DNA of 64,000 bases, from assembly GCA_015075515.1 (NCBI GenBank), contig JABTUE010000003.1, forward strand, positions 310,001-374,000. The letters run 5' to 3'. Origin of the DNA: Planctomycetota bacterium (lineage in GTDB: Bacteria > Planctomycetota > UBA8742 > UBA2392). Within the stretch, counting starts at the first letter, position 1; each line of letters opens with the position of its first letter. Below the pieces are notes generated by a model that saw nothing but the letters and a program-made list of their open reading frames with translations, did no database searches and was not told the DNA's origin. The position numbers were made by a program, and so were the translations under genes. Below, piece by piece: positions 20,511-29,505 of the stretch.

Positions 20511-22208
20511 TCAGGCGTACGCTGTGCGGCGCCGGCGCAGGACCAGCAGCGCAAACAGGCCCGGCAGCGCCAACCCGTGCCAGGACGCGCGCGCGTTGAC
20601 ACTGCACGTCTTGTCGTCGTCCCGACTCTTCTTCTCGCCGCCACCGCCGCCGGCTACTGCGGGGGCCTGGGCGTAGCCTGCCACTACAAACGTAAAGGTC
20701 GAGGTGTCGGGGTCGTCGCTGAGAATCGTCACCGTGTACTGAAAGAAGCCCCCCGCGACGGGCGTGGCCTCAACCACGAGATCACTGCTTGCGCCCGGTG
20801 CCAACGTTGCGCCCGGCTGGGTCATGATGATCGCGGTGCAGTTCACTTCACTTGAGATGGTGACGGGCAGGGTGATGGCAAGGTCTTGCTCGGCTGTGAC
20901 GGCGTTGCTGATCGTGATTGTGCGCAACTGCGCGGTGCCGGGCTGGACAACCGTCAGGCCCAGCAGTATGCCACCGTTGGCGACTGCTTGCGCACCCTCG
21001 GCCACGCCGATGTCCGACCCCTGCAGTTCAAATGCGCCGATGTCGGCGATCAGTCCGCGCCGCAGACCGCGCTGGTCTGTTGACATGCCCGATACACGGC
21101 GACCGGCGTTGCGGGCCGGGCTGTTTGCAGCTATCGCGTGGGTCAAGGTCAAGCCGCCATTGTCGGCAAGGGGCAGCAGCAGTGGGTCGGTGTTGACTTG
21201 ATCCCCATGCCTGTTCATCCATGCGGGCGCGTCGCTGCACAGATTGTAGCCCAAGGAATAGAAACCGCTCACTTGGAGACTACCGGTGTCTGAAACCCGG
21301 AACATCGCGCCACTGGCAGTACCATGAACAATGCAGTCCTGCAATGTCGCCTTGGTGAAACCATAAGAGGTGTTGATAAGGCACATACAGTGGGCGGGGC
21401 TGCCCGCTTGCGACGTGTTGTCCGTAAAGGTGCAACGACAGAATGTTGCGACCAGAGCACGCCTGACTTCCTGGGCTGAGGAGGGGAACCCCGTCGCTGT
21501 TTGCAAATAAGCCGCGCCGCCACTCATGGTCGTATCGCGAGCCGTGTTTCCGGAGAACGTCGAATCTTCAACAGTTATCTCAAATGACTTCCCCAAACTT
21601 GAGACATAGGCCATGATGACGCCGCTCGAGTCGCTTGTGTTGCGCGCAAATGTACAGTGCCGCGCCACCAGGTGCGCATTCCTGAGATAAAGGCATCCCG
21701 CGACGGTGAACATCGCGGTTGCGGTTGGTGCATTATCAAGAAACATACAGTTCGTGAGGTGGGCAAAGCCATCATTCACAAACACTGTCGCACCGTTCGA
21801 CCCGAAAGCGTTAGACTGAAACACACAGTTGCTTGCGACAAATTCAGCCGCTCCGACAGTTATCGGAAACTGTCCCAAGCCTTTTGTCAGGCGCAGATTG
21901 ATCAGAGTCAGGTTCTGGACGACTTCAAGCAGTGCCACCGCGTTGTTGCCATCAAGCGTGATGCCCGGTTTGCCGCTTGCGTCTGTCAGCCCCGTAATGG
22001 TCAGCGCCACTGTCGGCTGGATCATGCTGCCGAGTGTGATGGTGCCACCCGCCAGCGAAGCGTCAAACACGATCTCGTCGCCCGCCGCAGCGGCGGCCAC
22101 GGTGTCGCGCAGGCTGCCCGCGCCGGTGTCATTGAGGTTGGTCACTGTCCAAGTAACCGCACACAGCGGCGCCGCGAACACCAAAGCCAGCAGGATAAGG
22201 GTGCGCAT
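20511..22208 (-). CDS. Beta-helix surface protein (choice-of-anchor Q type) with sorting tail
   Basis: 565 residues from the ATG at 22208 (AAGGAGA upstream), with a signal peptide. The mature N-terminus VTNLNDTGAGSLRDTV is the hallmark opening of right-handed parallel beta-helix surface proteins. Rungs such as NLTLINLRLTKGLG and SFEITVEDSTFSGNTARD follow, and the end-cap SPARNAGRRVSGMSTDQRG then GLIADIGAFELQG. A choice-of-anchor/ASH-like domain comes next (VVQPGTAQLRTITISN ... FTFVVAGYA), then a Gly/Lys linker and the tail TCSVNARASWHGLALPGLFA ... RRRR. The middle third (about 21250-21850) is clearly AT-richer than its neighbours, a sign of foreign origin or recombination. Confidence 0.85.
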   Translation of the reverse strand: MRTLILLALVFAAPLCAVTWTVTNLNDTGAGSLRDTVAAAAAGDEIVFDASLAGGTITLGSMIQPTVALTITGLTDASGKPGITLDGNNAVALLEVVQNLTLINLRLTKGLGQFPITVGAAEFVASNCVFQSNAFGSNGATVFVNDGFAHLTNCMFLDNAPTATAMFTVAGCLYLRNAHLVARHCTFARNTSDSSGVIMAYVSSLGKSFEITVEDSTFSGNTARDTTMSGGAAYLQTATGFPSSAQEVRRALVATFCRCTFTDNTSQAGSPAHCMCLINTSYGFTKATLQDCIVHGTASGAMFRVSDTGSLQVSGFYSLGYNLCSDAPAWMNRHGDQVNTDPLLLPLADNGGLTLTHAIAANSPARNAGRRVSGMSTDQRGLRRGLIADIGAFELQGSDIGVAEGAQAVANGGILLGLTVVQPGTAQLRTITISNAVTAEQDLAITLPVTISSEVNCTAIIMTQPGATLAPGASSDLVVEATPVAGGFFQYTVTILSDDPDTSTFTFVVAGYAQAPAVAGGGGGEKKSRDDDKTCSVNARASWHGLALPGLFALLVLRRRRTAYA

Positions 22209-22429
22209 GAGTCTCCTTGGGTGAATACCGGCAGGATACAGGCAGAGGGCAGGCGCATTCAACCAGAACATGCCGAAGTCCAATGGCCTGCGTGCAAACG
22301 AGCAGGCCGGGGGAAAAGACACTGAACTTTTATGGCATCAAAGCTCCTGGGGGCCTTTTCCAAAAGGTTCCTGTGCGCGGACGGAAAGATCGCCAGGACA
22401 CTGGTCTGCCCAATACACGCAACAGGCTG

Positions 22430-23496: not shown

Positions 23497-24465
23497 ATGC
23501 GGACGATCCTCACTGTTCTCTCAAGCCTGGCCCTGACGGCCGGCCTTGGGATTTTCTCGGCACCTCTGAAGGCCGGCTGATGCCCCGCCCCGGCGCCGTC
23601 GGCGCCGAAAGGGCCCAGCAGCGGGCCGGTTTCCAGCCCCTCGGCCTCGCCCACCCAGGGTGGCGGCGGGCCAAGCGGGGCGGGAATCCAACCGCCCAAG
23701 AAGATGGGGCGGGTTGACAACCCAACGCCAGGCGGCGGACCGGTGGTTTCCAACCCGGCTCCGCGCCCGGCGCCGAAGTCGGAAGACCTGCCGGCGTTTG
23801 AAATGCCCAGCACGGCCGCGCTGGAGCGCGCCGCGGCGGACAAAAAGCCGCTGGTGGTGTACTTCCCGGGCGAAAAGGACGACGGCTCGGCCCTGGCGCA
23901 CCCGGACATCGTGTTCCTGAGCAAGAACGGCGCGGTGTTTATCCGCATCCCGTACAACGCCGACCGCGAAAAGGCGCCCTGGGATGTCGAATCGGTGGTG
24001 CCGGTCAGCAAGCTGCTGAGCGACAACCCCTCGCGCGAGTACGGCATCAAGGTAGGGCGCGAGACAGTGCTGGTGACCGACAGTTGGGGCAACGACTTCT
24101 TCCGGTTTGAGAAGGCCCCCACGGCCGACGAACTGCGCAGCTCGATCAAGAAGGTGGCCGAAAAATCCGAAGCCGCCAACAAGAAGCTGCAAAAGAACTA
24201 CGAGGCCGCCAGGGCGGCATGGGACAAGAAGGACCGCGTGAATGCTCTCAAGGCTGTGCTGAAGAACTTCAAGGAAGGTGTTGTGGGTGTCGAAGCCCAG
24301 CAGAACTCGATCAGCCTGTACCACGAAATCATGGATTCCGCCCGTGCCAGCATCAGTGAACTGGCCGGCAAGGGCGACAAGGAAGGACTGAAGGGTCTGG
24401 CCAAGGAACTCAAGGGCACCGACGCGGCCAAGGACGCCGAATCTGCCCTGGCCAAAATGAAGTGA
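23497..24465 (+). CDS. Candidate exported selenoprotein 1 (in-frame TGA after the signal peptide; thioredoxin-like domain)
   Basis: The ATG at 23497 has AGGAG seven bases upstream and starts a signal peptide (MRTILTVLSSLALTAGLGIF ... APLKAG). Codon 28 is TGA (23578-23580), followed by TGC. The same frame then stays open for 294 codons to TGA-TAA at 24463-24468. After the TGA come a Pro/Ser/Gly linker (about 30-85), then a thioredoxin-like region (LERAAADKKPLVVYFPG ... YGIKVGRETVLVTDSWGNDF) in which the CxxC position reads GEKDD, and a Lys/Ala-rich helical C-terminus. Reading TGA as selenocysteine gives Sec-Cys at the mature N-terminus, in the place of a lipobox Cys. A hairpin with a G-first loop starts 11 bases after the TGA. 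Without recoding the gene would be broken, and an ATG at 23704 would give a cytoplasmic 253-residue protein. The same oddity in the next gene argues for recoding. Confidence 0.65.
23587..23614 (+). promoter_or_regulatory. Candidate bacterial SECIS hairpin 1
   Basis: CGGCGCC-GTC-GGCGCCG (23591-23607): a 7-bp stem with a three-base loop beginning with G. The stem is extended below by GCCC (23587-23590) pairing with GGGC (23611-23614) across an AAA bulge. Seventeen bases separate the TGA from the loop. Known bacterial SECIS elements sit directly after the UGA with a small apical loop carrying a G among its first bases. Confidence 0.5.
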
Positions 24466-24479
24466 TAACCAGCGTGTAG

Positions 24480-24544
24480 GTTCACCGGCATAGCCCAGCC
24501 CGGTGAACGGACAGGAGGGGTCCCTACCGCACCGGGCCCCTCCT
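24480..24544 (+). other. Two intergenic hairpins between the TGA-containing genes
   Basis: GTTCACCGG / CCGGTGAAC (24480-24508, 9 bp) and AGGAGGGG / CCCCTCCT (24513-24544, 8 bp plus three inner pairs including a wobble). Neither is followed by a T-run. Together with the terminator just after, they fill the whole gap, so transcript processing or attenuation between the genes is possible. Confidence 0.5.
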
Positions 24545-24553
24545 CACAATTCC

Positions 24554-24577
24554 GGCCGCCCCCCAGCGGCCTTTTCT
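24554..24577 (+). terminator. Terminator or attenuator between the TGA-containing genes
   Basis: GGCCGC / GCGGCC with a 6-base loop, followed by TTTTCT. The ribosome-binding site of the second gene (GGAG) starts two bases later. No separate promoter is visible, so partial read-through may set the ratio of the two products. Confidence 0.6.
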
Positions 24578-24587
24578 GGAGACTCCC

Positions 24588-25478
24588 ATGCGGAACCTGG
24601 TACTGATGAACGTGGCACTGATCGCGCTGATCGGCACGCTGGCCCAGCCCCTGCCCGCGTGAGGTGGCTGAGCCGGTGGCGGCGGGGGCGGTGCCTCCGC
24701 AAAACCGATTCAGCGCGCTCCTGCCCAGCCTGTTCCGGCGCGTCCGGTGACAAGCACCCCTGCCAAGGTAATTGCCCCGGCCTGGGAAAAGCCGTCCAGC
24801 CAGGCGCTGGATCGCGCGGCGTCAACCAAAATGCCGCTGGTGATCTGCTTTCCTGACGAAAAAGACGACCCGGCGGCCTTTGCCGACCCCGAACTGGTCG
24901 AGATGGCGGCCAAAGACGCGGTGTTTATCAAGATGCCCTACACCTCGATCCGCGATAAAGCGCCGGGGGCCGAAGAAAGCGTGATTCCGACCAGCAAGCT
25001 GCTTTCCGACAACCCGGCGCGGGACTATCGCGTTCCGGTCGGCAAGCTGACACTGATTCTGGCCGATTGCCACGGCAATGAATATTTCCGCCTGACCAGC
25101 GTGCCCAAGGCCAAGGAACTCAAGGCTTCGCTGGAGAAAATCCCGGCCCAGATGGAGAAAGCCGAATCACGCCTGCGCAAGAATTATGACAGCGCCAGGG
25201 CGGCATGGGACAAGCAGGACCAGGCCAACGCGCTGAAGCCGATTCTCAAGAACTTCAAGGAAGGTCTGGTCGGTCTGGAGGCCCAGCAGGAAACGATCAC
25301 GTTGTACAACCAGATCCTCGAGGCGGGCCTGGAGAAGGTAAAGAAGGCTCATGAACGTGGCGACATGGAAGCGCTCAAGGGCCTGAGCAAGGACTTCAAG
25401 GGCACATCGGTGGGCAAGGCCGCCGACGACGCCCTGAAGAACCCGATCGCCAGAGTCACGCAGGAAAAGAAAAACTGA
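24588..25478 (+). CDS. Candidate exported selenoprotein 2 (two in-frame TGAs, U-x-x-U; thioredoxin-like domain)
   Basis: 296 codons before the stop. The ATG at 24588 (GGAG upstream) opens a signal peptide (MRNLVLMNVALIALIGTLAQ then PLPA). Codons 25 and 28 are TGA (24660-24662, 24669-24671), giving U-G-G-U followed by A and six glycines if read as selenocysteine. That string looks like the N-terminus of a Gly-rich lipoprotein with Cys replaced by Sec. The frame then runs open to a TGA at 25476-25478. The rest is a clear paralogue of the upstream gene: ALDRAASTKMPLVICFPDEK, KLLSDNPARDYRVPVGKL, NYDSARAAWDKQDQANALKP. The thioredoxin-type CxxC position again reads PDEKDD. An internal ATG/GTG start near 24747 would remove the export signal. 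Confidence 0.65.
24674..24707 (+). promoter_or_regulatory. Candidate bacterial SECIS hairpin 2
   Basis: GCGGGGGC-GGT-GCCTCCGC (24682-24700): an 8-bp stem with one G-T wobble and a GGT loop. Below it CGGT (24674-24677) can pair with ACCG (24704-24707). The loop lies 18 bases after the second TGA and 27 after the first, so one element could serve both. Confidence 0.5.
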
Positions 25479-25498
25479 CCCGGGCAGAAGAAAGGGCA

Positions 25499-25524
25499 CG
25501 GCCCCGGCACGCCGGGGCCGTTTC
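25499..25524 (+). terminator. Terminator after the second TGA-containing gene
   Basis: A 10-bp stem CGGCCCCGGC / GCCGGGGCCG with a 2-base loop, followed by TTTCCGTT. It ends the two-gene unit. The 220 bases up to the next gene show no further feature beyond the GGAG site at 25735. Confidence 0.75.
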
Positions 25525-25744
25525 CGTTGGGTGCCTTTGCAACGGCGCCGCGAGACGCACCCCGTGAGCTGCCTGCACCGTGCGGCCGCGGGCGACAACG
25601 GAGTGATTGACAGCGCGCGGGGCCAAGCGAAACTGCACGCGCGTAGAACGAGCGTCCGTCGGCCGGCGGATGCTCGTGTCGTTTGCGGGCCGGCGCGCCG
25701 GAAACGGGACCAGACTGGGCAAGACAGCAACGAAGGAGACAGTG

Positions 25745-27569
25745 GTGAACACGGACATTCGAACCCTGCTGTTGGCGGCCTGTGTGTGTCTTGGCGGCGG
25801 GCTTGCGGCTGCCACATTCAACGTGACGAACCTGAACGACGCGGGCGCGGGGTCATTGCGCCAGGCGATGCTTGACGCCGAAGCCGCGCCGGGCGCGGAC
25901 AACATCATCTTCAACGCGACGCTGAACGGCACGATCAACCTGCAAACGGAACTGCCGACGATCACGCAGGACCTGGTGATTGAGGGCCCGACGGCAACCG
26001 GCAGCGCGGTGACGGTGGCGCGTGCGGCCACGGCGGCGACAAACTTTCGCATTTTCACGATCACAGCGGGCACAGTAAGCATCAGCGACCTGACCATTGC
26101 CGACGGCAATGTGACCGGCGCGCCGGCCGAGGGTGGCGGCGTTCACAACGCGGACACGCTGGCTCTGGCGCGCTGCGTGATCCGGGGCTGTGTGGCCACC
26201 GGCGACAACAACGGCGCCGGCACGGGGTTTTCGGCGCAGGGCGGGGGAATCTTCAGCAGCGGGGCGCTTACCCTGACCGACTGCTCGATCATGGATTGCG
26301 AAGTCCACGGCGGCGCCTCCACAAGCGGCAGTACGGGCGGCGCGGCCCGGGGCGCGGGCGTGCACACGGGTGCGGGACTGCTCACGATGATTCGCTGCCG
26401 CGTCGAGCACTGCCACAGTGACGGCGGCCAGGGCACCGGAAACGGCGTCGGCGAAGGTGCCGCGCTGTACATCGGTGCCGGCGGCGCCAACGTGCGCGAC
26501 AGCGACATCCACGGCAACGAAAACCGTGACTTTCACGCGCCGTCACAGATCGGTGCCACGGTTGTGGTCAACGGGCCTTCGCTGTTTCTGCGCACTTCCA
26601 TCTGCGAATCGGTCGGCGGGGCATGTTTCCAACGCCAACCTCACGCTGCGCAACGCAACATTCAGCGGCAATGCCGGCGGCACTGCCGGCGGCCTGTATG
26701 CCGTCACGGGCACCTGCAACATCGAGTACTGCACGCTGACGGGCAACACATGCGTTTCCGGCGTCGTGGGCGGCGTGTACGCAACCACAACCACGAACGT
26801 AACGGGCTGCATCATTGCCGGCAATTTCGGGCCTGGTGCCGATGTTTTCGGCCCGTTCAATGACGGCGGTTTCAACCTGATCGGCGACGAAACCGGGTCT
26901 TCGGGATTCACCGTCAGCACGCTGGTGGGCACCCTGTTCAGCCCGGTCAGTGCCGGGCTGGGGGCGCTCAAGTCCTTCGGCCTGACGCGCGGCCACGAGC
27001 CCCAGACCGGCAGCTTTGCGATCAACGCCGGCGGTTCGGGCGCGCCCTTTGACGACCAGCGCGGCGCCAACCGCGCGCTGGGCGGCGGGCCGGACATCGG
27101 CGCGATCGAGTTCATACCCAACATCGCGCCGGATTTTCTGGCCGGGCCGGCCGTCACTGTCAGCGGCGATTCGCCGCGCACGATTGCCGCCTGGGCCACG
27201 GCGATTTCCCCCGGCGCGAGCTGGGAGGCCGGCCAGAGCCTGAACTTTGTGGTGATCCCGCGCCAGAGCTGGGGCTTCAGCCAGACACCGGCGATCAACG
27301 CGACCACCGGCGATCTGACCTTCCGGCCGTCCAAAGGTTCCAACGGCACCTGGGTGTTTGACGTGTACCTGGTGGACGACGGCGGCACAGCCGGCGGCGG
27401 CAGCAACACCTCGCCGGCGGCGCTTTTGACCATCACCGTCGAAAACAACGACCCCGACAAGAATGACGAACTGTGCAGCACCGGCGCCGGCGGCGCGCCG
27501 TGGCTGATGCTGGCGGGGCTGGCGGCGCTGCTGGTCCTTGGCCTGCGGCGTGTCAGGGCGGCTTTCTAG
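25745..27569 (+). pseudogene. Beta-helix surface protein gene with a single frameshift
   Basis: The first half, from a GTG at 25745 (GGAG six bases upstream), has a signal peptide, the opening [19 protein letters not shown] and beta-helix rungs ([35 protein letters not shown]) up to about 26617. The protein continues in another frame from [19 protein letters not shown] through the end-cap GAPFDDQRGANRALGGGPDI, an Ig-like module and the tail ELCSTGAGGAPWLMLAGLAA ... LRRVR. The break is at the run GGCGGGG (26617-26621): dropping one G joins the halves into one protein of about 607 residues (SVGGHVSNAN). It could be a sequencing error, phase variation in a short G-run, or a recent mutation; the flanking codon use is intact, so it is not old decay. 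Confidence 0.75.
27474..27556 (+). repeat. 83-bp near-identical repeat, copy 1 (sorting-tail coding)
   Basis: Encodes CSTGAGGAPWLMLAGLAALL and the following LVLGLRRVR. It differs at only two bases from 29413-29495 in the next gene, far less than the rest of the two proteins differ. See findings for interpretation. Confidence 0.9.
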
Positions 27570-27648
27570 TTGCAATCCGCAGCCGGGTTTTCTGTATCAT
27601 GGGTCACTTTCCTGAAGGCTCGCTCGCTCACGGGCCCCGGAGAATCCC

Positions 27649-29505
27649 ATGCGTACCCTGTGCCTTGCGGCGGTGCTGGCCTTTACGGGCAGTCTGGCCG
27701 CCCAGAATGTCTTTACCGTCACCAATGTGAATGATTCCGGCGCGGGCTCATTGCGCCAGGCAATTATGGACGCCAACGCCACGCCCAACCAGACGGTCAG
27801 CATGGTGCCGGTTGCCGACGAAATCCGGTTTGGGTCGGGTGTCACGGGCACCATCAATCTGGCCTCGCAACTGCCGGTGATCACCGAAGGGGTAAATGTG
27901 ATCGGGCCGGGGCGTTCGCTGCTGACGATTCACGGCGGCGGCAATTTTCGGGCCTTTGAGTCCAGTCTCGGGCATTACCTGGGCGTGTCGCGCCTGACGC
28001 TGCATTCGTGCCTGGTTGTCGGCGATGGCGGGGCGATCCTGAGCCGCGGCTTCACCGTAATCAGTGACGTGGCGTTTCGCAACTGCCACGCGGTCGGGGC
28101 AAGTTCGGGCTCCGGGCCCGGCACCAACGGCCGCGGCGGCGCGATCTGTCACTCGCCGCTGATTGCGGAACTGTGGGTGACCAACAGTCTGTTTCAGGAT
28201 TGCACGGCCGGGGGCGGTTCGGGAACGGGCGGCAACGGCGGCAACGGTTTCGGGGGCGGCATTTATCTGGGGGCGGGCGTCGGACGGATTTCGTTGAGCA
28301 CGTTCGACACCTGCGCGGCCTACGGTGGCCACACCAGCAGCGGCGGACTGGGCGGCAAAGGTGCAGGCGGCGCGATCTATGCCGTGTCGGCACTGGATCT
28401 GGACGACCTGGTGATCTTTGACGGCTTTGCCAGCGGCGGCGACACCACCACGGCGACACAGGGCGGCGGCACTGGAACCGGTGCGGGCATCTTTGCGGAT
28501 ACGGATCTTGACGCCCTGCGCGTAACGATCACGAACTGTCAAAGCGCCGGCGGTCTGCCCGGTGCAGGCGGCGCCGGCGGAGACGCCATCGGCGGCGGGG
28601 TCACCAACGAAAGCGGCACCAGCGTTCTGCGGCTGTGCGTAATTGAGGGCTGCGGCGCCGCCACCACTTCGGGCGGGGCGGCTTATGGCGGCGGCATTTA
28701 CGCCGAAAGCAGCCTGACCGTGCGTGAAAGCCACATCAATGCCTGTCTGGGCACGGACCTTGGCGCCGGCATCTACTACGAAGGTTCCGGCACGGTGATG
28801 ATTGACCGTTCCACCATCAGCAACTGCAACGGCGTGGGCATCCGCGCCAACGGCGGAACCAGCTTCACGATCATCAACAGCACGATCAGCGGCAACGGCC
28901 CCGGCAGCACGACGGGCGGCATCTGGAACAGCGGCGCGGTGATGCAGATCAGCTTCAGCACAATCACCGACAACCAGGGCTCCACCTGGGGCGGTGTGTA
29001 CCGCACGGGCGGAACGCTGGGCATTCTGGGCAGCATTATTGCCGGCAACATCGGCAGCGGCAGCTCCACCGACCTGGCCGCCGGCGGCAGCATGACGATC
29101 CAGAACAGTGTGGTCGGCATCCAGGATCCCGACGCAATTGCTGTCAACGGTTCCAACGGCAACCAGGTGGGCAGTGCGGGCACGCCGCTTGGCGCGATGC
29201 TCGGGCCGCTTGTGAACAACGGCGGGCCTACCCCCACCCACGCGCTGTTGACCGGCAGCCCGGCCATCAACATGGGTGGCAGCACGGGCGTGCCGTCCAC
29301 CGACCAGCGCAACGCGCTCCGCAACCAGGGCGTGGCCGACGCCGGCAGTTACGAGTTCGGCGCCACCCCGCCCAACACCGGCGGCACCGCCGGCGGCAAG
29401 GGCGACGACCGTTGCAGCACCGGCACCGGCGGCGCGCCGTGGCTGATGCTGGCGGGGCTGGCGGCGCTGCTGGCCCTTGGCCTGCGGCGTGTCAGAGTTC
29501 AATGA
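27649..29505 (+). CDS. Beta-helix surface protein with sorting tail
   Basis: 618 residues. Signal peptide MRTLCLAAVLAFTGSLAA, GGAG upstream. The mature start is [20 protein letters not shown]. About 450 residues of Gly-rich parallel beta-helix rungs follow (GGAICHSPLIAELWVTNSLF, TSFTIINSTISGNGPGSTTG, MQISFSTITDNQGSTWGG), then the end-cap GPLVNNGGPTPTHALLTGSP and GVPSTDQRNALRNQGVADAG. The tail is CSTGTGGAPWLMLAGLAALL ... LRRVR. Proteins of this kind are surface adhesins or carbohydrate-binding or -cleaving; no catalytic residues can be assigned. Its 3' end overlaps the convergent phosphoesterase by 14 bases. Confidence 0.88.
   Translation: MRTLCLAAVLAFTGSLAAQNVFTVTNVNDSGAGSLRQAIMDANATPNQTVSMVPVADEIRFGSGVTGTINLASQLPVITEGVNVIGPGRSLLTIHGGGNFRAFESSLGHYLGVSRLTLHSCLVVGDGGAILSRGFTVISDVAFRNCHAVGASSGSGPGTNGRGGAICHSPLIAELWVTNSLFQDCTAGGGSGTGGNGGNGFGGGIYLGAGVGRISLSTFDTCAAYGGHTSSGGLGGKGAGGAIYAVSALDLDDLVIFDGFASGGDTTTATQGGGTGTGAGIFADTDLDALRVTITNCQSAGGLPGAGGAGGDAIGGGVTNESGTSVLRLCVIEGCGAATTSGGAAYGGGIYAESSLTVRESHINACLGTDLGAGIYYEGSGTVMIDRSTISNCNGVGIRANGGTSFTIINSTISGNGPGSTTGGIWNSGAVMQISFSTITDNQGSTWGGVYRTGGTLGILGSIIAGNIGSGSSTDLAAGGSMTIQNSVVGIQDPDAIAVNGSNGNQVGSAGTPLGAMLGPLVNNGGPTPTHALLTGSPAINMGGSTGVPSTDQRNALRNQGVADAGSYEFGATPPNTGGTAGGKGDDRCSTGTGGAPWLMLAGLAALLALGLRRVRVQ
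29413..29495 (+). repeat. 83-bp near-identical repeat, copy 2 (sorting-tail coding)
   Basis: Second copy of 27474-27556, two mismatches. The last four bases also lie within the convergent phosphoesterase gene. Confidence 0.9.

Follow-up and report, generated by a model that had tools for sequence, protein, structure and literature searches.

Two tandem genes with in-frame UGA codons

Two tandem genes lie on the plus strand of the window, the 64,000-nt stretch of planctomycete DNA analysed here. In each, a predicted signal peptide leads directly into one or two in-frame UGA codons, which are almost certainly read as selenocysteine (Sec, U); this reading is inferred from sequence, with no selenium or mass-spectrometry data. 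The features of the locus are:

23497..24465, plus strand: putative selenoprotein gene 1, 322 aa including Sec28
23497..23577, plus strand: predicted Sec-type signal peptide of gene 1, 27 residues up to Sec
23578..23580, plus strand: in-frame UGA, putative Sec28 of gene 1; next codon TGC (Cys29)
23591..23607, plus strand: SECIS-like hairpin of gene 1, 7 G-C pairs, loop GUC, 17 nt after UGA
23779..24123, plus strand: predicted thioredoxin-like domain of gene 1, about residues 95-209, no Cys (AlphaFold2 and Foldseek)
24588..25478, plus strand: putative selenoprotein gene 2, 296 aa including Sec25 and Sec28, UGGU motif
24588..24659, plus strand: predicted Sec-type signal peptide of gene 2, 24 residues, PLPA before Sec
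24660..24662, plus strand: in-frame UGA, putative Sec25 of gene 2 (open frame, homologues)
24669..24671, plus strand: in-frame UGA, putative Sec28 of gene 2 (open frame, homologues)
24682..24700, plus strand: SECIS-like hairpin of gene 2, 8 pairs, loop GGU, 18 nt after the second UGA

The ATG of gene 1 at 23497 is preceded by AGGAG and opens the signal peptide MRTILTVLSSLALTAGLGIFSAPLKAG, in which an Arg, a hydrophobic core and L-K-A-G before Sec can be read, a pattern conserved in the family. Past the UGA, the frame stays open for 294 codons up to a TGA at 24463-24465, followed by TAA. With the internal TGA translated as U, the product is MRTILTVLSSLALTAGLGIFSAPLKAG-U-C-PAPAPSAPKG... (322 aa), made up of the signal peptide, a Sec-Cys pair near the predicted mature N-terminus, a Gly/Pro/Ser-rich tail, the thioredoxin-like domain and C-terminal helices. 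Gene 2 has the same architecture. GGAG precedes its ATG at 24588, the signal peptide is MRNLVLMNVALIALIGTLAQPLPA, and the frame past the TGAs is open for 268 codons to the TGA at 25476-25478, giving MRNLVLMNVALIALIGTLAQPLPA-U-GG-U-AGGGGGG... (296 aa). Both signal peptides were read by eye from the sequence and from family conservation, without a signal-peptide program. The two proteins are 46-49% identical across their whole length. The preliminary description of the locus had given the coordinates, ribosome-binding sites, signal peptides and in-frame TGAs of both genes and had called them tandem paralogues with TGA after the signal peptide; all of this held.

In the sister genome G001, the orthologue of gene 1 (L055:4132-5085) is identical at 263 of 318 aligned residues and has the same TGA, and the orthologue of gene 2 (L055:5215-6096) has UU instead of UGGU.

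Directly 3' of gene 2, a strong terminator-like hairpin (25498-25521) is called on the minus strand; on the plus strand, too, a short T run follows it. Exported repeat proteins encoded at window positions 20511-22322 (minus strand) and 25607-29505 (plus strand) share a C-terminal tail, C(S)TG..GAPWLMLAGLAALLVLGLRRVR, that resembles a GlyGly/MYXO-type sorting signal.

Distribution of the family

Seven copies of the family are found in the source genome (G000; 3.87 Mb, 5 contigs), six of them with in-frame TGA and together holding about 12 putative Sec codons: the window pair, a tandem trio just upstream of selA (C4:65118-68374), and members at C2:913415 and C1:605067. Another 15 genomes carry 3-8 members each, for a total of 77 members in 16 genomes, all from one uncultured Planctomycetota family. 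Named records with members include the uncultured Planctomycetota MAGs ACE_PLA32, ACE_PLA33, SJ201, SJ873, FR_29 and HKST-UBA84/87/88, among others. Beyond the phylum, the search consisted of a single pattern scan of 84,980 species, whose only hits belonged to the same planctomycete group, and one scan of viral contigs, in which no relative was found. Most of the family genomes are metagenome assemblies, the start codons of members were chosen by rule, and two members in G014 (L084, L091) look frame-shifted.

A family cluster adjoins selA and selC (tRNA-Sec) in 15 of the 16 genomes; in the exception, G011, selA lies on another contig. In G001 some 2 kb separate the selA-linked trio from the orthologues of the window pair, which lie upstream of it, and the window pair has therefore probably been separated from that trio in G000. 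Between the two groups in G001 stand two genes, one Fe/Mn superoxide-dismutase-like and one exported and leucine-rich-repeat-like, identified by eye (L055:6050-8300, minus strand).

In-frame stops and Sec/Cys exchange

All 77 members were read from start to end. In-frame TGA occurs in 60 of them, 102 times in total, without a single TAA or TAG before the terminal stop. Because the same TGA architecture recurs in 60 of 77 homologues and every one of the 102 in-frame stops is TGA, chance is ruled out. The TGAs are concentrated at codons 24-32 (93 of 102), and nearly all lie no more than about 8 codons from the predicted signal-peptidase site. The motif after the signal peptide is UU in most members, with UC, CU, UGGU and UGGGGGU also present; in one subfamily, UASU or UGSU is followed by a third U some 12 residues on.

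Cysteine takes the place of the UGA codons in several ways. Seven genomes each hold one Cys-only paralogue with 4-7 Cys at the site (CSGGGGCGTGGCG...), arranged in the same tail as CxGGxC / GGCP repeats. Between the orthologues L057:6918 (306 aa) and L066:6882 (307 aa), identical at 285 of 306 residues, TGA is exchanged for TGT; L069:4020 and L071:617 show UC/CU, and L064:5821 and L067:4454 UC/UU. The distant planctomycete relatives L039 and L043, outside the family, have a signal peptide followed by TCGGGGGGGGGG and are among the homologues with Cys at the Sec position ('ATCGGGGGGGGGG'), so that the expectation of Cys homologues for a selenoprotein is met. Neither Sec nor Cys is present at the site in some paralogues and in one distant relative, L147, which has Ser. 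Third codon positions account for most of the differences between orthologues on either side of the TGA, across which signal peptide and tail evolve as a single frame.

Selenocysteine machinery and ordinary use of UGA

The source genome encodes the complete set of four components sought. tRNA-Sec with anticodon UCA (C4:62773-62861, 73 bits) lies beside selA (C4:63674-64762, E 7e-141), selB is at C1:465476-466588 (E 4e-94) and selD at C1:1077128-1078054 on the minus strand (L105, E 2e-117). Across the family genomes, selA is present in 16 of 16. The selD gene itself has one in-frame TGA (...LTQLSHGAG-U-GCKLS...), and its GAG-U-GCK motif stands where SelD usually has Sec. Selenophosphate synthetase is thus a selenoprotein in this genome, which indicates independently that the organism reads UGA as Sec. 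A glycosyltransferase-2-like gene, recognized by eye (L052:4923-5624, minus strand), stands between selA and tRNA-Sec.

TGA also serves as an ordinary stop. By rough gene calls, about 17 of 38 genes in the window end in TGA, and 25 of 68 (about 37%) when other regions of the source genome are added; the earlier claim that UGA is not generally reassigned held. Only 3 of the 60 Sec members end in TGA, against these 25 of 68 genes (p 1e-5), which indicates avoidance. Genes 1 and 2 are two of the three, unlike most of the family.

The preliminary description, which had proposed Sec, had also named in advance what would refute it: absence of selB or selC, sense codons other than Cys at the TGA positions of homologues, or translation only from the internal starts near 23704 and 24747. 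None of these was met as stated, and the Sec reading is strongly supported. The machinery is present; aligned homologues have TGA or Cys, apart from the paralogues and the Ser relative described above; and starting at 23704 or 24747 would discard a region that evolves as one frame across the TGA.

SECIS-like hairpins

In the published bSECIS model, G stands in the first two loop positions and the hairpin lies 16-37 nt after UGA (PMC13188914). Both window genes satisfy the loop, distance and free-energy (<= -7.5 kcal/mol) criteria, which are weakly met in a minority of members. The hairpin of gene 1 is CGGCGCC-GUC-GGCGCCG (p 0.0115 against synonymous shuffles of gene 1), and that of gene 2, GCGGGGGC-GGU-GCCUCCGC (p 0.018), belongs to the covarying set. 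In most members the loop is GGN, GTN or CGTG(TT) and the hairpin starts 16-25 nt after the UGA, or after the last UGA of a pair.

Hairpin scores were compared with 2000 synonymous-codon, protein-preserving shuffles per gene. At the 60 Sec sites the mean score is 17.9 versus 10.8 in shuffles (Fisher 8e-28, a value that counts related genes as independent and so overstates the strength). At the seven Cys paralogues it is 7.1 versus 8.1, and the hairpin is absent there. A score of at least 14 is reached by 83% of Sec sites versus 2.4% of control positions in the same genes. At a minority of Sec sites (e.g. L066:5779, L052:5507, L058:4178), no strong hairpin is present within the range tested.

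Covariation supports the stem. Among 24 sequences, 95.5% of cells are paired, with 25 cells changed on both sides versus 6.0 in shuffles, and sliding the partner strand drops pairing to 43-69%. With a fixed register in 34 sequences, picked by a protein rule only, 83% of cells are paired versus 65% in shuffles, and 45 versus 15 are changed on both sides. The single-sequence folding energy of the window hairpins is unexceptional (z -0.8 and -1.2) owing to the high G+C content of the region, and Rfam has no match at the window locus. The evidence for SECIS elements comes from position, loop and family-wide covariation, not from the folding energy of the window hairpins. The hairpin also shapes the protein: the codons of the Ala/Ser break that follows the Gly run form the 3' strand of the stem.

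Predicted N-terminal processing and fold

The residues before Sec (LAAQ, LSAG, LKAG, TAYG, PLPA) fit signal peptidase I and not a lipobox, so that in most members the mature protein probably starts no more than one or two residues from the first Sec, as inferred from sequence. A lipoprotein in which Sec replaces the lipobox Cys was considered and rejected, since position -1 is often Gln (..LAAQUU, the UU class), which a lipobox disallows. The pattern [LVI][ASTVI][GAS]C with Cys at +1 is not met: Sec replaces Cys, and position -3 of gene 1 is Lys. The 'lipoprotein-like' part of the earlier reading is accordingly not supported.

An AlphaFold2 model built from a 38-member alignment has pLDDT above 90 for 212 residues. 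It shows a thioredoxin-like domain (about residues 95-209) followed by long helices, with the Sec tail unstructured. Against the PDB, Foldseek ranks DsbH 2ju5 best (2e-4), followed by YbbN 3qou (2.5e-4) and after it many thioredoxins. Since the matches do not share the tail and the C-terminal helices, TM-scores normalised to the whole query are low. The criterion of a thioredoxin fold is met by the predicted model only. The assignment rests on the model because other comparisons gave no support: only 15 columns could be aligned when profiles were compared with E. coli thioredoxin, and searching the PDB by sequence returned nothing credible.

No CxxC, UxxC or CxxU is present at the start of the first helix, judging from Cys positions and the alignment. 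By eye, YFPGEKDDGS of gene 1 would stand at the thioredoxin FWAEWCGPC site, with PGEKDDGS in the place of CGPC. The domain seems to be without a CxxC or catalytic Cys of its own. No Pfam family matches gene 1 above its curated cut-off, Thioredoxin_7 being touched by 2 of 38 members at about 1e-3. No NCBIfam model (June 2026), including Sao, Tso, MbdU and UXX-star, scores above cut-off; TsoB is touched by one member (E 0.023).

Neighbouring genes and proposed mechanism

Conserved neighbours were sought for single-copy members. At 6 loci (L054:1132-1971 on the minus strand, L074, L088, L090, L091, L079), the UGSU/UASU...U subfamily is directly followed by a lipoprotein that carries two CxxCH motifs for haem (Cytochrom_C_2, E 4e-7); in the source genome, about 10 bases separate the stop of the UGSU...U member from the ATG of the cytochrome. 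Downstream of the AKAALNK-tail subfamily, a lipoprotein with PPC domains and, following the lipid Cys, an Asp/His-rich stretch (CDHHHDEDDHN) is found at about ten loci (L106:4477-5370 on the minus strand and about nine others). These lipoproteins point to work in the envelope, the dihaem one to electron transfer and the Asp/His-rich one perhaps to metals.

By sequence, the two window genes are members of an undescribed family of exported selenoproteins from one uncultured Planctomycetota lineage, in which SelB and tRNA-Sec decode the one or two UGA codons behind the signal peptide as Sec at the adjacent hairpin. The steps that follow are inferred, and the description as a whole, inferred steps included, is likely (probability roughly 0.85). 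The signal peptide would be cut 0-2 residues from the first Sec in most members. One to three Sec (UU, UC, UGGU, UASU...U) would then open the mature protein, on a flexible tail rich in glycine; holding this tail is a thioredoxin-like domain that seems to have lost its CxxC. Outside the cytoplasm, in the cell envelope, the tail may act as a tethered selenol arm that reduces, for example, peroxides or disulfides by cycling between selenol, selenyl-sulfide and diselenide; an envelope electron carrier would recharge the arm, with the thioredoxin fold as a docking platform. The function is inferred, not shown: we favour redox over soft-metal binding, with no more assurance than a balanced wager. 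The case for redox has only the fold and one neighbour behind it, the domain seems to lack a catalytic Cys, and a reductase partner was not noticed next to the main clusters.

A bolder reading can be put forward only tentatively, and we would not yet call it probable. Here, the family would be a new class of envelope selenoproteins with a vicinal, diselenide-forming Sec-Sec centre at a free processed N-terminus, on a glycine tether, the thioredoxin fold lacking its own active site and serving as platform only. Copies would have been amplified to several per genome beside selA/selC, and the family may be the main reason why the lineage keeps Sec.

Alternative explanations

The main rival accepts the same selenoproteins and takes the arm to bind soft metals (Hg, Cu, Ag, As, Cd): the thioredoxin-like body would be a scaffold, and vicinal selenols would chelate metal in the envelope. 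In its favour, the body apparently has no CxxC, the tail is flexible and glycine-rich, the Cys-only paralogues hold 4-7 Cys in CxGGxC / GGCP repeats, and the second subfamily is followed by the Asp/His-rich PPC lipoprotein at about 10 loci; several catalogued multi-Sec families are also thought to bind metals (PMC13188914). However, an unsystematic look beside the clusters turned up no metal transporter, MerR-type regulator or reductase, and one subfamily pairs with a dihaem cytochrome instead. Metal binding remains a real possibility, though less likely than not and ranked just behind redox. Storage or transfer of selenium in the envelope, as by animal selenoprotein P in plasma, would suit exported proteins with several Sec each, in many copies and linked to selA/selC, but there are only 1-3 Sec per protein and Cys-only paralogues persist. 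A bacterial cell is, to our knowledge, under no need to export selenium, and this explanation is unlikely.

The remaining alternatives deny Sec altogether. Decay of the genes, or translation only from internal starts at 23704 and 24747 with the upstream part non-coding, is all but excluded. An ATG and a GTG do exist there and would give proteins of 253 and 243 aa. Against this, a signal peptide with TGA, never TAA or TAG, is found in 60 genes of 16 genomes, the upstream region shows coding-type substitutions, Sec and Cys replace each other, the hairpins covary, and no clear ribosome-binding site is present in the CCGCCCAAGAAG preceding 23704. The homologues already refute decay and internal starts unless all 60 share one cause. 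General reassignment of UGA, or readthrough without Sec (e.g. as Trp or Cys by a suppressor tRNA), has nothing specific in its favour and is very unlikely: about 37% of called genes in the source genome end in TGA, tRNA-Sec(UCA) and selA/B/D are present, and local hairpins accompany these UGAs only.

Relation to known selenoproteins

With the catalogued bacterial selenoproteins the exported family shares in-frame UGA, a bSECIS-kind hairpin, selA/B/C/D and Cys homologues. A 2026 catalogue of prokaryotic selenoproteins lists 119 families/subfamilies, none with the present motif or position (PMC13188914). Its two-Sec motifs are UxxU, CU, UxxxxU and the like, and its families have neither UU nor Sec at an exported mature N-terminus outside a thioredoxin active site (PMC13188914). 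A report on planctomycete selenoproteins (PMC4807772) deals with fdhA, fmdB and others. The family is new to the 2026 catalogue, NCBIfam and Pfam, and no description of it was found in the open-access literature searched (without preprints), which does not exclude one elsewhere; the earlier statement that no exported family with Sec in this position had been described held within the catalogue, NCBIfam and this literature.

In predicted fold, the nearest proteins are DsbH (2ju5) and exported Thioredoxin_7/Thioredoxin_2 proteins. Compared with these, the window family apparently has no CxxC or Sec in the fold, bears its reactive residues on an N-terminal tail and has long C-terminal helices. 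YbbN (CnoX) of E. coli (3qou) likewise joins a thioredoxin-like domain to a helical C-terminal domain, but the low TM-score makes this match a lead only; YbbN is not known to be exported or to have a Sec tail. Vicinal Cys/Sec on a flexible chain end recalls the GCUG tail of thioredoxin reductase and SaoC (CU at the C-terminus), where the pair is C-terminal; in the window family it is N-terminal, without a flavin or reductase core. Animal selenoprotein P is also exported, with several Sec and a thioredoxin-like domain, but its Sec lie in UxxC and a Sec-rich C-terminus, and no sequence relation has been shown.

Bacterial Sec is usually one residue inside the known redox motif of an enzyme. Here one to three putative Sec, often two adjacent, stand at the tip of exported proteins encoded by up to six genes per genome, and the family would enlarge the known chemistry of Sec. 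The natural Sec/Cys swaps at one site offer a way to ask what selenium buys. Annotation that takes the UGAs as stops cuts the export signal and the putative active residues off the whole family.

A more distant member, L146 (G005:C264), has AQ-U-RPVG-U after its signal peptide, so that further Sec spacings exist.
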